Shown here one piece after another: positions 5,512-9,933 of a stretch of DNA of 20,532 nucleotides. Positions within the stretch are counted from its first letter, which is position 1; each line of letters begins with the position of its first letter. Position numbers and translations under genes: made by a program. A model generated the notes under the pieces. It worked only from the letters and a program-made list of their open reading frames with translations, was not told the DNA's origin and did no database searches. The DNA lies in the IMG/VR virus record IMGVR_UViG_3300009183_000442, positions 1 to 20,532 of that record; one strand, 5' to 3'. Source of the stretch: a virus.

Positions 5512-6024
5512 TTAAGCTTCCATCTTCAGTGATTCTTCTTTTACTTCATTGACTCGTTTTTCCCAACCCCTACCAAAAGTAGGCCAAGTACTTAATGTCC
5601 GCAAGAAGTTAAGCCGAGCATCACAGAAGTCTTCTATAAGACCAGTCGTTGCAACTTGCTTTACGGCAGCCATAGTAGTCGGGCCAATACCACCGTCAGC
5701 AGTAACCCCAACACAACCCTGCAACAATTTAACAGAACGCCCGACCCCGGAATTAACAGCGCAGTCAAAAACAGCGTAATCAAGACCAGATACAAGCTCA
5801 TCAGCTCTGCAAGCATCCCAGTACTTCCTTTTATATAAAGGTGCAACATCATCTGGAGTTAGCGTCCGCATCTGCTTCTCATCAACAGGATGTCCAACCC
5901 AACTCTCCCATACTTTAGCAGTTACACCAAGATTTGTCATGCCTCCTGGATCTTGGCTGTGATTACTGTAGCCACCTTCATGCTGTAACAACAGGAGCAA
6001 AGACCTATGGAAATTACTTTGCAT
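5512..6024 (-). CDS. Endolysin, GH108-type N-acetylmuramidase
   Basis: The 170-residue protein should cleave the glycan chain of peptidoglycan at the end of infection. Residues 15-35 hold the family signature HEGGYSNHSQDPGGMTNLG; Glu16 of the EGGY motif is the expected catalytic acid. The segment YKRKYWDA follows near residues 64-71, as usual in this family. Residues of about 90-165 (DYAVFDCAVNSG, GVTADGGIGPTTMAAV) match the C-terminal peptidoglycan-binding-3 type domain. The length is normal for the family. I see no signal peptide or membrane anchor at the N-terminus, so export would depend on a holin. The gene overlaps the Rz-type gene upstream by 11 bases and lies next to the other lysis genes, which supports the call. 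Confidence 0.92.
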   Translation of the reverse strand: MQSNFHRSLLLLLQHEGGYSNHSQDPGGMTNLGVTAKVWESWVGHPVDEKQMRTLTPDDVAPLYKRKYWDACRADELVSGLDYAVFDCAVNSGVGRSVKLLQGCVGVTADGGIGPTTMAAVKQVATTGLIEDFCDARLNFLRTLSTWPTFGRGWEKRVNEVKEESLKMEA

Positions 6025-6433
6025 TAAAAATGCCTATCTGCTCGCTAAGCCATCCTTGTAGCGATACCAACTGTTGCGTAGTTATTGCACATTTTTCAAT
6101 AAATTTAGGGTCGGCGGGGGTGCCATCAGTTGGGTTGGTGGCAGCGGAAATTGTGCCTGTTTGATTGGTACTGGAGAGGCGCATCCCACCATAAGTACGC
6201 TTAATAAGAGCGATACGATTTTCATAGTCATTTTTTACCTTTTCATTAACTTGAGCGGCTTCTTTAGCCTTTGATTTGTTAATCATTTCCTGCTCTTTAG
6301 CAGCTAGTTCAACCTTGGATACATAGGCATCGTACTTAACAGACTCGTACTTACCGTAGCCAATACCGCCAATTGCAGCCAAAGCCAGCGCAGCGTATAT
6401 GTAAAACTGAATTGGTATCGTTAGTCCGAACAT
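6014..6433 (-). CDS. Rz: i-spanin, Rz-like inner-membrane lysis protein
   Basis: The product is 139 residues. One N-terminal membrane segment (about residues 8-26) is followed by a charged, helical, probably coiled-coil region (35-80) and a C-terminal part with CAITTQQLVSLQGWLSEQ, a pattern seen in many Rz-like proteins. Inner-membrane spanin subunits have this type II topology and bridge to an outer-membrane lipoprotein to fuse the membranes after endolysin has acted. The start overlaps the stop of the upstream gene (TAATG at 6435-6431), and the end overlaps the endolysin start. A complete o-spanin gene lies inside it in a different frame (6082-6231). Position, topology and the nested partner together make the call strong, although the Rz sequence itself is poorly conserved across phages. 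Confidence 0.88.
   Translation of the reverse strand: MFGLTIPIQFYIYAALALAAIGGIGYGKYESVKYDAYVSKVELAAKEQEMINKSKAKEAAQVNEKVKNDYENRIALIKRTYGGMRLSSTNQTGTISAATNPTDGTPADPKFIEKCAITTQQLVSLQGWLSEQIGIFNAK
6082..6231 (-). CDS. Rz1: o-spanin, Rz1-like lipoprotein nested inside the Rz gene
   Basis: A 49-codon frame lies wholly inside the Rz-like gene, shifted by +1 relative to it. It starts at ATG 6231 with AAAAGGT about six bases upstream and ends at TAA 6084-6082. The product opens MTMKIVSLLLSVLMVGCASP: a short basic-hydrophobic signal peptide and a lipobox with Cys17 as the lipidated residue. Position +2 is Ala, not Asp, which fits outer-membrane sorting. The mature part is only 33 residues and proline-rich (FPLPPTQ, APPPTLN), as in lambda Rz1. 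It would pair with the Rz-type protein to form the spanin that disrupts the outer membrane, so it also argues for a Gram-negative host. It is short enough to be missed by automated calling. The lipobox -3 residue is Met rather than the more usual Leu. Confidence 0.9.
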   Translation of the reverse strand: MTMKIVSLLLSVLMVGCASPVPIKQAQFPLPPTQLMAPPPTLNLLKNVQ

Positions 6434-6990
6434 TAGACAAACCTAATAGTGAATGCAAAAGTAGCTGGAAAGTTCTTAATCAGCGCTGTATTGTCGTGCC
6501 ATTGGTCTGGAGTAATAAAAGCAGGATCAACTAAGGCACGGATGTTATGCCCAAAGTTTAAAATCATCATCTTGCCAAAAACATAATGGTATGAGTTGTA
6601 CTGCCATAAATTATGACCTTCTACACGGATAGTGCCTTCGTGGGTTTCGTTGCAGTTAATATCGCCCTGATAGCTCATACCAGAAGATCCATCAATAAAC
6701 TTGACATCAAAGCCGTAAAACGGATTACGCCACAGCCATTGAACTTTTGACCACCAGCAAGGGTTATGTTCTGCCCTAAAGGTTTGATCACCGTCTAAGC
6801 TATTATCGGGCGTTTGGAACCATGACAAGAAAGAGAATAGGCGTGGGCCTGATTGCCAGACCGTAGCATTGTTGCACCAACCAATTTGGGTTGAATACAT
6901 AATGCCGATAATGAATGCTAAAGGGAAAGTTAAAACCGTACCAATTAAGTTAATAGGTACTAACACTAAGGCGTAAATTAAATAGTTCAT
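6433..6990 (-). CDS. Membrane-anchored phage protein of unknown function in the lysis cassette
   Basis: I choose the ATG at 6990 because it overlaps the stop of the holin candidate (ATGA at 6990-6987). A longer frame from 7035 would run 45 bases further back into that gene and add a non-hydrophobic leader. The 185-residue product has a strongly hydrophobic N-terminus (residues 1-30, MNYLIYALVLVPINLIGTVL and on), enough for one or a hairpin of two membrane passes. It is then Trp/Phe-rich with LFSFLSWFQTPDNSLDGD and WLWRNPFYGFDVK. I recognise TPDNSLxGD and WLWRNPxYGF as recurring in phage proteins near lysis or tail genes; I know no proven function. Two Cys at C53 and C93 or so could pair if exposed to the periplasm. 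Being inside the cassette suggests a role in lysis timing or membrane work, but this is only inference. Confidence 0.8.
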   Translation of the reverse strand: MNYLIYALVLVPINLIGTVLTFPLAFIIGIMYSTQIGWCNNATVWQSGPRLFSFLSWFQTPDNSLDGDQTFRAEHNPCWWSKVQWLWRNPFYGFDVKFIDGSSGMSYQGDINCNETHEGTIRVEGHNLWQYNSYHYVFGKMMILNFGHNIRALVDPAFITPDQWHDNTALIKNFPATFAFTIRFV

Positions 6991-7190
6991 TTTTCGTCCA
7001 AAGGTAAGGTTGTATAAAACCGCAAAATTGCACAAACAACTCCAACAGACATTAAAATAATGCCATAGTACTTGGGGTCAATAATGTTCTGTAAATAAGA
7101 AAAGTTCTCATATACAGCGCCAACCACCATTAACGCAAGAGAAAACCACATGGTCTTTGAGTGCATCGCACCCTTAACGCTGCGTTTCAT
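6987..7190 (-). CDS. Putative small holin with two membrane segments and a possible dual start
   Basis: The 67-residue product has two predicted membrane segments (about 13-29 and 42-58), a Pro-Lys-Tyr-Tyr-Gly turn between them, and a charged C-terminal end (TTLPLDEK). The SKTMWF opening and the C-terminal LRFYTTLPL pattern resemble small phage holins I know from similar cassettes. It directly precedes the other lysis genes. The ATG at 7190 lies one base after the stop of the upstream zinc-ribbon gene and has no good SD, so it would rely on reinitiation. A second in-frame ATG at 7166 (Met9) has AAGGG four bases upstream and drops Lys2, Arg3 and Lys6. A frame reaching 7232 overlaps the upstream gene and is less likely. 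A holin would time lysis by holing the inner membrane; no search was possible. Confidence 0.72.
   Translation of the reverse strand: MKRSVKGAMHSKTMWFSLALMVVGAVYENFSYLQNIIDPKYYGIILMSVGVVCAILRFYTTLPLDEK
7171..7175 (-). promoter_or_regulatory. Shine-Dalgarno AAGGG for the internal Met9 start of the holin candidate
   Basis: AAGGG sits four bases before the second in-frame ATG (7166-7164), whereas the first ATG at 7190 has no comparable site. This decides the ambiguity between a single shorter start and a dual-start holin/antiholin arrangement in favour of Met9 being used at least sometimes. Confidence 0.5.
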
Positions 7191-7191
7191 G

Positions 7192-7404
7192 CTACCAAGT
7201 AATGCCAATAACAGGCACGGAAGTAACTGCAACTGCTACATGTTGTTCAGGGTTAGATAAATCGGCACCACAATCATTGCATACTAGTGCCACCAATTCG
7301 GCTTCATCTACATCTCGATTGCAGTTTGGGCAAAGGATTTCTATTTTAGTTGCGCAATCCGCATCTTTGCCGGGAATATCTTGGGCTTGAGTTTCTATAA
7401 TCAT
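7192..7404 (-). CDS. Small zinc-ribbon protein with hydrophobic C-terminal tail
   Basis: The product is 70 residues. Two CxxC knuckles, C25-P-N-C28 and C42-N-D-C45, are 13 residues apart, a classic zinc ribbon. The last 16 residues (about 55-70) are hydrophobic and end in Trp. The start overlaps the stop of the upstream glycine-rich fibre gene (ATGA at 7404-7401) and the stop is one base before the holin start, so all three are probably translated together. The role is unknown. Zinc ribbons in phages serve DNA, RNA or protein contacts; the position at the fibre/lysis boundary gives no clear hint. The tail is too short and Pro-broken to be a confident membrane anchor. Confidence 0.75.
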   Translation of the reverse strand: MIIETQAQDIPGKDADCATKIEILCPNCNRDVDEAELVALVCNDCGADLSNPEQHVAVAVTSVPVIGITW

Positions 7405-8835: not shown

Positions 8836-9933
8836 TTATGCTGCTATAAGTTCCCAATTTGTGGTTTCTAAGTCATCAATTTGACTCCAACCAGATCCTG
8901 AATCATCGTCTATATCTGTCCAGCCAGGGTCAGGCACATCTGGAATCTGACCCCAAACTAGTACTTGCCCGATTATACCTCGTGCTTGAACGCCTGTTAA
9001 GTAGATATTAGCATTGGCTACAGTTGTTACTGTACCTATATATCCAATGGCCTCAACACCTGTAACACGGATATTTTGGGTTAATCTAACAGTTACTTGC
9101 CCAATCTGTCCTATGCCTTGAGCGCCCGTTAAATAGATTGCTGCGCTTGCTGTAGTACTAACTGACCCAACCTGTCCTTGAGCCTGAACGCCTGTTAGGT
9201 AGACATTAGCATTTGCTGCGGTGGTTACCGTGCCAACCTTTCCTACAGCCTGAACGCCTGTTAGGTAGACATTTGCCCCCGCAGTAGCAGAAGCCGTTCC
9301 TAGTTGAGTAACCCCTACAACGCCTGTTACATTGACTACGGCATCTCCTGTGACGCTAGTAGTTCCAGTTTGCCCTACGGCTTGTACGCCTGTTACATTG
9401 ACCCCAGAGCCTTGTTTAACCGTTACGGTACCTACTTGTGCTGGGGCTTGAACCCCAGTAAGATTTACTGTTGCACCTGCGGTAGTTGTGGCAGTACCAA
9501 CTTGTCCTACGCCCTGTACGCCAGTAAGATTTACTACTGCGCCAGCTTGAGTGGTTACAGTGCCTACATATCCTACCGCTTGAACGCCCGTTAAATTAAC
9601 TACCGCAGTACCTGTAACGCTTGCAGTACCTAAATATCCAACTGCCTGAACCCCAGTTAAGAATACATTTGCTGAAGCAGCGGTTGTAACAGTATCTACC
9701 TGACCAACAGCTTGAACACCAGTTAAAAGAACACCAACACCTTCTTTAACTGTTAAAGTCCCGGTTTGCCCAACTGCTTGAACGCCAGTTACATAAGCAT
9801 TGGCTGCGCCAGTAGCATTAGCAGTGCCTAGATAGCCAACCGCCTGAACGCCAGTAACATTAACATTTACTGAAACAGAACCTGCACCAGTATCTGCAAA
9901 GGGGGCCGAAGCGAAAGGTACGAATCCGAACAT
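8836..9933 (-). CDS. Virion/tail protein of fourteen exact 22-residue repeats
   Basis: The 365-residue product has a 22-residue leader (MFGFVPFASAPFADTGAG...), fourteen repeats of exactly 22 residues with no insertion or deletion (residues 23-330), and a 35-residue acidic tail. The repeat consensus is roughly LTGVQAVGQVGTVTT followed by a short variable link; Gly at the TG and VG positions is nearly invariant. The period and the alternating Val/Thr/Gly pattern suggest a beta-solenoid or a regular beta-stack. The tail repeats a Trp-Thr-Asp-Ile-Asp-Asp / Trp-Ser-Gln-Ile-Asp-Asp motif and ends WELIAA. Proteins with TGVQAxGxVG repeats occur in other aquatic phage tail regions, without known function as far as I know. 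Its setting between two glycine-rich fibres suggests a fibre shaft or spike. The SD is weak; translation is probably coupled to the fibre gene that ends two bases upstream. Confidence 0.85.
   Translation of the reverse strand: MFGFVPFASAPFADTGAGSVSVNVNVTGVQAVGYLGTANATGAANAYVTGVQAVGQTGTLTVKEGVGVLLTGVQAVGQVDTVTTAASANVFLTGVQAVGYLGTASVTGTAVVNLTGVQAVGYVGTVTTQAGAVVNLTGVQGVGQVGTATTTAGATVNLTGVQAPAQVGTVTVKQGSGVNVTGVQAVGQTGTTSVTGDAVVNVTGVVGVTQLGTASATAGANVYLTGVQAVGKVGTVTTAANANVYLTGVQAQGQVGSVSTTASAAIYLTGAQGIGQIGQVTVRLTQNIRVTGVEAIGYIGTVTTVANANIYLTGVQARGIIGQVLVWGQIPDVPDPGWTDIDDDSGSGWSQIDDLETTNWELIAA
8944..9867 (-). repeat. Tandem array of fourteen 66-bp coding repeats
   Basis: The array is uninterrupted and encodes residues 23-330 of the repeat protein. 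Units are 66 bp each (14 x 66 = 924 bp). Amino-acid positions T-G-V-Q-A and the central G are conserved while third codon positions vary (cctgttaagtaga, ccagttaaaaga, cctgttacattga and so on), so the copies are old and kept by selection rather than freshly duplicated. Confidence 0.9.

Follow-up and report, generated by a model that had tools for sequence, protein, structure and literature searches.

An Rz1-like lipoprotein frame nested in the Rz gene of a largely metagenomic phage family

Lysis locus and the nested lipoprotein frame

The stretch of viral DNA analysed here (the window, 20,532 nt, IMG/VR record IMGVR_UViG_3300009183_000442) carries a set of neighbouring lysis genes on its minus strand, and a 49-codon frame lies wholly within one of them, the gene for Rz (Table 1). 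The first-pass annotation had given the correct position of this nested frame without stating its strand; the frame is read from the minus strand, in +1 relative to Rz, and the first plus-strand frame over the same positions contains stops. The features claimed for it, namely a Shine-Dalgarno site of its own, a lipobox ending in Cys17, Ala at +2, and a proline-rich mature part, are all present. The product is MTMKIVSLLLSVLMVGCASPVPIKQAQFPLPPTQLMAPPPTLNLLKNVQ. Sequence and hydropathy indicate a lipoprotein signal with a basic start, a hydrophobic stretch, and the lipobox MVG followed by Cys17 and Ala, after which the protein runs into its proline-rich end.

Table 1. Features of the window and of related loci (L numbers are loci of relatives)
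Feature	Position	Strand	Basis or remark
Rz, predicted i-spanin, 139 aa	6014..6433	(-)	ORF, hydropathy, low-confidence model, weak PHROG matches
Rz1, predicted o-spanin, 49-aa lipoprotein gene	6082..6231	(-)	wholly within Rz, +1 frame
Rz1 signal peptide, residues 1-16	6184..6231	(-)	lipobox MVG, then Cys17; hydropathy peak, lipobox counts
Rz1 Cys17 codon	6181..6183	(-)	predicted lipid attachment; family-invariant
Rz1 proline-rich motif FPLPPTQLMAPPP	6112..6150	(-)	mostly over the Rz linker
Shine-Dalgarno-like AAAAGG of Rz1	6238..6243	(-)	in Rz codons 64-66; 6 nt to ATG
Endolysin, GH108 and peptidoglycan-binding domain	5512..6024	(-)	start overlaps Rz end by 11 nt
Holin candidate, 81 aa, two hydrophobic stretches	6987..7232	(-)	hydropathy; weak PHROG holin match, E 0.031
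DUF7338 protein	6433..7035	(-)	between holin candidate and Rz
Repeat protein, 365 aa	8836-9933	(-)	TGVQAVGxxGT-like units
66-nt tandem array	9446-9607		inside the repeat-protein gene
Nested Rz1 of MW202520	L062:3125-3286
Nested Rz1 of MW202796	L063:678-848
GH19 endolysins of relatives	L002:3410-3997, L018:3410-4009
Phage lysozymes of relatives	L024:3420-3941, L041:3440-3961
GH108 endolysins of relatives	L016:3410-3931		also in L074

Rz has an N-terminal transmembrane segment at about residues 6-24 according to hydropathy. Its AlphaFold model is a low-confidence one, with a mean pLDDT of 55.6, and only the helix layout was used: a helix at 8-81, a linker at about 82-108, and a second helix at 109-138.

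Comparison with known families pointed to a spanin pair. Rz1 matched a PHROG of Rz-like spanins with an E value of 5e-5, and the Rz1 alignment matched lambda Rz1 in hhalign with a probability of 91.8 and an E value of 7e-7. Removing the signal peptides lowered the probability to 57.9, with a score of 21.6 for the mature parts that was reached in none of 200 shuffles (mean 9.3, maximum 17.1). Rz itself gave weak matches to Rz-like spanins in PHROG (E 0.0052 and 0.021, and down to 7e-5 for other family members), its best PHROG being an unspecific 'signal peptide motif' family, and no match to lambda Rz was detectable by profile comparison (probability 3.8). The spanin survey of 2018 (PMC6139136) describes i-spanins as very diverse. 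Pfam matches were too weak to count alone: LysC for the window Rz1 at E 0.031, below its cut-off, and, among ten family members, LysC in three (best 0.0061) and Rz1 in two (best 0.039). NCBIfam was uninformative on Rz, Rz1, and the holin candidate. The identification of the nested product as Rz1, an o-spanin, is upheld by the PHROG match, the profile match to lambda Rz1, the lysis neighbourhood, and the conservation of the lipoprotein frame in relatives described below.

The genes around the pair vary. Frames beside Rz/Rz1 in seven relatives comprised two GH108 endolysins, two GH19 endolysins, two phage lysozymes, and one frame without a match (L028). The endolysin thus switches family beside a constant Rz/Rz1 pair, and its GH108 version is encoded on the opposite strand in clade 2 (such as L074). 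The lysozymes of L024 and L041 start with a hydrophobic stretch, which may resemble that of SAR endolysins. Of the 60 loci from the first scan, some with truncated flanks, 23 gave a match to a DUF7338 homologue. Since this gene separates the holin candidate from Rz in the window and some relatives, its product might join in disrupting the outer membrane, or Rz1 might lyse by a route other than fusion. We consider this very improbable, as relatives such as L011-L018 have a holin-like gene ending directly before Rz and no matched DUF7338 homologue, and as the Rz1 motif matches that of lambda Rz1.

Elsewhere in the window, a gene for a protein built of repeated units contains a tandem array (Table 1), and a tRNA search of the window found none. 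A 717-aa structural protein has relatives in phages of Pseudomonas, Aeromonas, Roseobacter, Pelagibacter, Planktothrix, and others (20 listed of 139 records); the hosts named among the listed records are diderm. Two scans of a prokaryote genome collection gave no cellular relative of Rz. A diderm host is likely, on indirect evidence, and the first-pass reading that the gene fixes the host as Gram-negative is a fair one.

Conservation and selection in two frames

The length of the nested frame alone is not significant, because an ORF this long arises in 7-10% of recodings of the gene. With the Rz protein fixed, an ORF of 49 aa or more in another frame appeared in 1498 of 20,000 recodings drawn from the codon usage of the window and in 1933 of 20,000 in which the gene's own codons were permuted. 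A lipoprotein-like nested frame of at least 40 aa was far rarer (27 and 63 of 20,000, respectively), and the lipoprotein pattern of Rz1 is thus unusual against the recodings. A similar lipoprotein filter applied to the six frames of the window also picked four other frames, presumably meaningless. For a single sequence, such a pattern is suggestive and short of proof; the reality of Rz1 is therefore settled by its conservation in relatives.

Altogether, 95 complete Rz genes were compared: that of the window, 92 from IMG/VR loci, and two from GenBank phage records, with Rz identities to the window of about 30 to 97%. Apart from the window, 79 were found through Rz and 15 through a scan with Rz1, so that the presence of a nested Rz1 was part of the selection of the latter. 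Many of the 95 are near-copies, and the distinct Rz1 sequences number 63. A nested lipoprotein frame closed within Rz was found in all 95 genes, its mature product having 33-41 aa with 6-10 Pro. The first IMG/VR scan with Rz returned 60 loci, 57 of them with a complete Rz (L058, L059, and L061 were excluded because contig ends truncate the gene); the nested frame, its Cys, and the residues CASP were kept in all 57 and in the window. A scan with the Rz alignment added 21 new loci among the best 80 of 94 relatives; the 20 complete ones all had a nested Rz1, and L067, incomplete at a contig end, is outside this count. Among the best 80 of 87 relatives in the Rz1 scan, 79 were embedded, the exception being L145, in which the front of Rz is missing at the contig end. 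The nested Rz1 was kept across clades at about 30-45% Rz identity. Stops or an absent Cys in the nested frame of relatives, named in the first-pass annotation as evidence against the gene, occurred in none of the complete genes.

The two GenBank phages, MW202520 and MW202796 (source Manatee Spring; 30-34% Rz identity), share with the window a homologous Rz and a nested Rz1 with the motif FPSPPxxLMxxPPTxxLL; unlike the window, they have a second Cys in Rz1. A third, weak GenBank match to Rz (E 5) was left out. The nested Rz1 is unannotated in both records, as is Rz in MW202520; PMC6139136 reports that nested Rz1 genes are frequently overlooked in annotation. In part of clade 2 (L068-L080 and L082), the first 60 or so Rz codons are also open in the +1 frame, which there encodes a hydrophobic product; this N-terminal frame is not listed in L081, L083, and L084 and is thus probably due to chance.

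The start region is conserved as well. ATG was the first Rz1 codon in 56 of 58 genes; the other two (L045 and L049) kept an ATG two codons downstream, and Rz1 of L065 likewise reads KTTMK. The AAAAGG was present in 57 of 58 genes, with CGGAGAAAG in its place in L060. The Lys codon of Rz under this site was AAG in 60 of 61 genes of the window's clade (group 1), while the other Lys codons of Rz comprised 254 AAG and 372 AAA.

Synonymous change in Rz was suppressed about 3-fold over the nested frame, as the first-pass annotation had predicted for third positions over 6082-6231. Among 51 distinct genes, the proportion of differing codons for the same Rz residue was 0.501 outside the overlap and 0.154 inside it. 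Counted per codon, the synonymous difference was 0.499 for 74 codons outside and 0.136 for 49 inside (Mann-Whitney p 1e-14), and 25 distinct genes of other clades gave 0.367 and 0.138 (p 2.8e-6), the unit of both p values being the codon, not the sequence, and the sequences being related. The outside set excludes the two codons at the start of Rz, the last few at its end, and codons 61-68 around the ribosome site, with similar exclusions for the other clades. Variation at Rz third positions fell from 0.520 outside to 0.192 inside the overlap. Rz first positions, which are the third positions of Rz1, were not slowed (0.229 outside, 0.252 inside), as is expected if the +1 frame codes. The second frame is under selection.

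An open frame arising in Rz by chance, with no product, is accordingly scarcely credible: neither the frequency of frames of this length among recodings nor the four other frames picked by the filter weighs much against a frame kept in every complete gene, with suppressed synonymous change and a similarity to lambda Rz1. Conservation of the overlap DNA as an RNA or regulatory element without a second gene has an equally negligible probability, for although RNA structure could by itself lower synonymous change, variation within the overlap follows the nested codons (0.113 at first, 0.192 at second, and 0.252 at third positions), and the +1 product is conserved as a protein that matches Rz1. Both readings were rejected.

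Lipobox, cysteines, and division of constraint

As a rule, the residue following the Cys is other than Asp in lipoproteins sorted to the outer membrane. In the 63 distinct Rz1 sequences, this residue was Ala in 48, Thr in 13, and Ser in two, and never Asp. The lipoboxes were MVGC (48), IVGC (5), MVAC (3), and MLGC (2), with LVAC, IAGC, LTGC, LAGC, and ITGC occurring once each. Met at -3, which the first-pass annotation had considered unusual, is instead the norm of the family (53 of 63). It is the sole departure of MVGC from the o-spanin consensus [LVI][ASTVI][GAS]C given in PMC6139136, where deviations are also reported.

The family is divided by a second Cys in mature Rz1, absent from all 61 group-1 sequences and present in all 34 others. 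The conserved Cys of Rz (Cys115 in the window) was found in 95 of 95 genes, and in all 61 group-1 Rz proteins, it is the only Cys past residue 28. In an Rz tree of 75 rows, one branch separated the Cys-lacking from the Cys-bearing group with a support of 98/95, in an alignment of few columns that include the overlapped ones and with a long-branch warning for L062 and L063. Because a Cys is present at position 29 of lambda Rz1, one loss in the clade of the window is the more economical reading, though not a proven one. According to PMC6139136, 507 of 528 spanin pairs carry at least one Cys, and work cited there found that either Rz Cys152 or Rz1 Cys29 suffices in lambda. The window pair fits this rule with one periplasmic Cys, that of Rz, and the intermolecular disulfide through it is putative. 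In L150-L153, two extra Cys (SSCGQLSC) are located in the Rz linker, within the stretch overlapped by Rz1.

The two proteins are not constrained equally along the overlap. Among 54 distinct group-1 genes, the mean pairwise identity over Rz codons 83-103 was 0.56 for Rz and 0.80 for Rz1; it was 0.74 and 0.66 over codons 69-82 and 0.82 and 0.78 over codons 104-117, respectively. Outside the overlap, the +1 readout of group 1 had an identity of 0.40-0.42 vs. 0.70-0.88 for Rz. Codons 83-103 fall in the modelled unstructured part between the two Rz helices (mean pLDDT 55.6), and Rz1 is the more conserved of the two proteins over this linker. The division of constraint holds by region only: no per-codon anticorrelation between Rz and Rz1 conservation was found inside the overlap (Spearman 0.16, p 0.28). 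For lambda, PMC5295617 reports that where one spanin protein is sensitive, the overlapping part of its partner is silent, and that the Rz linker can be replaced by Ser-Gly repeats. The window family agrees with this mutagenesis pattern by region, whereas its per-codon correlation is not negative.

An embedded two-component spanin

We read the nested frame as Rz1 of an embedded two-component spanin (probability about 0.96), with a function in lysis proposed by analogy with lambda. The frame is open in the window and its relatives, its ribosome site and lipobox are conserved, both frames are under selection, and its product resembles lambda Rz1 in a lysis gene context. As in lambda, Rz1 lies wholly within Rz in the +1 frame and is a lipoprotein whose mature part is short and rich in proline. 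The order of membrane segment, helix, linker, and helix described for lambda Rz in PMC5295617 is shared by the low-confidence model of the window Rz. Rz1 has 60 aa in lambda and 49 aa in the window, and the Cys29 of lambda Rz1 has no counterpart in the window's clade. Rz Cys115 of the window is located close to where the second helix begins, while Cys of lambda Rz are at 99 or 152. In the window, Rz/Rz1 precede the endolysin; in lambda, they follow it.

This kind of spanin is well known from lambda, and the window pair adds another member. In the 2018 survey, 182 of 528 spanins were embedded (PMC6139136). The window Rz1 covers 0.48-0.84 of the Rz gene length; its start is in the range of 0.4-0.5 reported for about 70% of the embedded spanins of that survey, which end at 0.9-1 of Rz, that is, further downstream. 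The +1 frame is one of the two seen there, and the presence of one or more periplasmic Cys in a pair is likewise shared. In contrast to the survey, the mature window Rz1 has no Cys beyond the lipobox, and the phages of the window family are known only from metagenomes, apart from the two GenBank records.

By the lambda model, ribosomes would start Rz1 at a separate site within the Rz mRNA. Rz would be an inner-membrane protein whose periplasmic domain is helical, and Rz1 would be exported, lipid-modified at Cys17, and, given Ala at +2, anchored in the outer membrane. After cleavage of the peptidoglycan by the endolysin, the two proteins may pull the membranes together in a complex, and the phage would be set free by membrane fusion or disruption.

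A fuller picture, to which we give even odds, is that the embedding is locked in this family and selection is shared along the DNA, Rz1 ruling over the linker, with one loss of the Rz1 Cys leaving cross-linking to Cys115 only. With 95 complete pairs, the family is well sampled, and double-frame selection on a spanin can be measured on natural variation. Two points are of modest interest, the division of selection by region and the clade-wide difference in the Rz1 Cys. If true, the former would mirror, in natural variation, what mutagenesis showed for lambda, and the natural loss of the Cys offers a case in which to probe the idea that only one well-placed disulfide site is required in a spanin pair.
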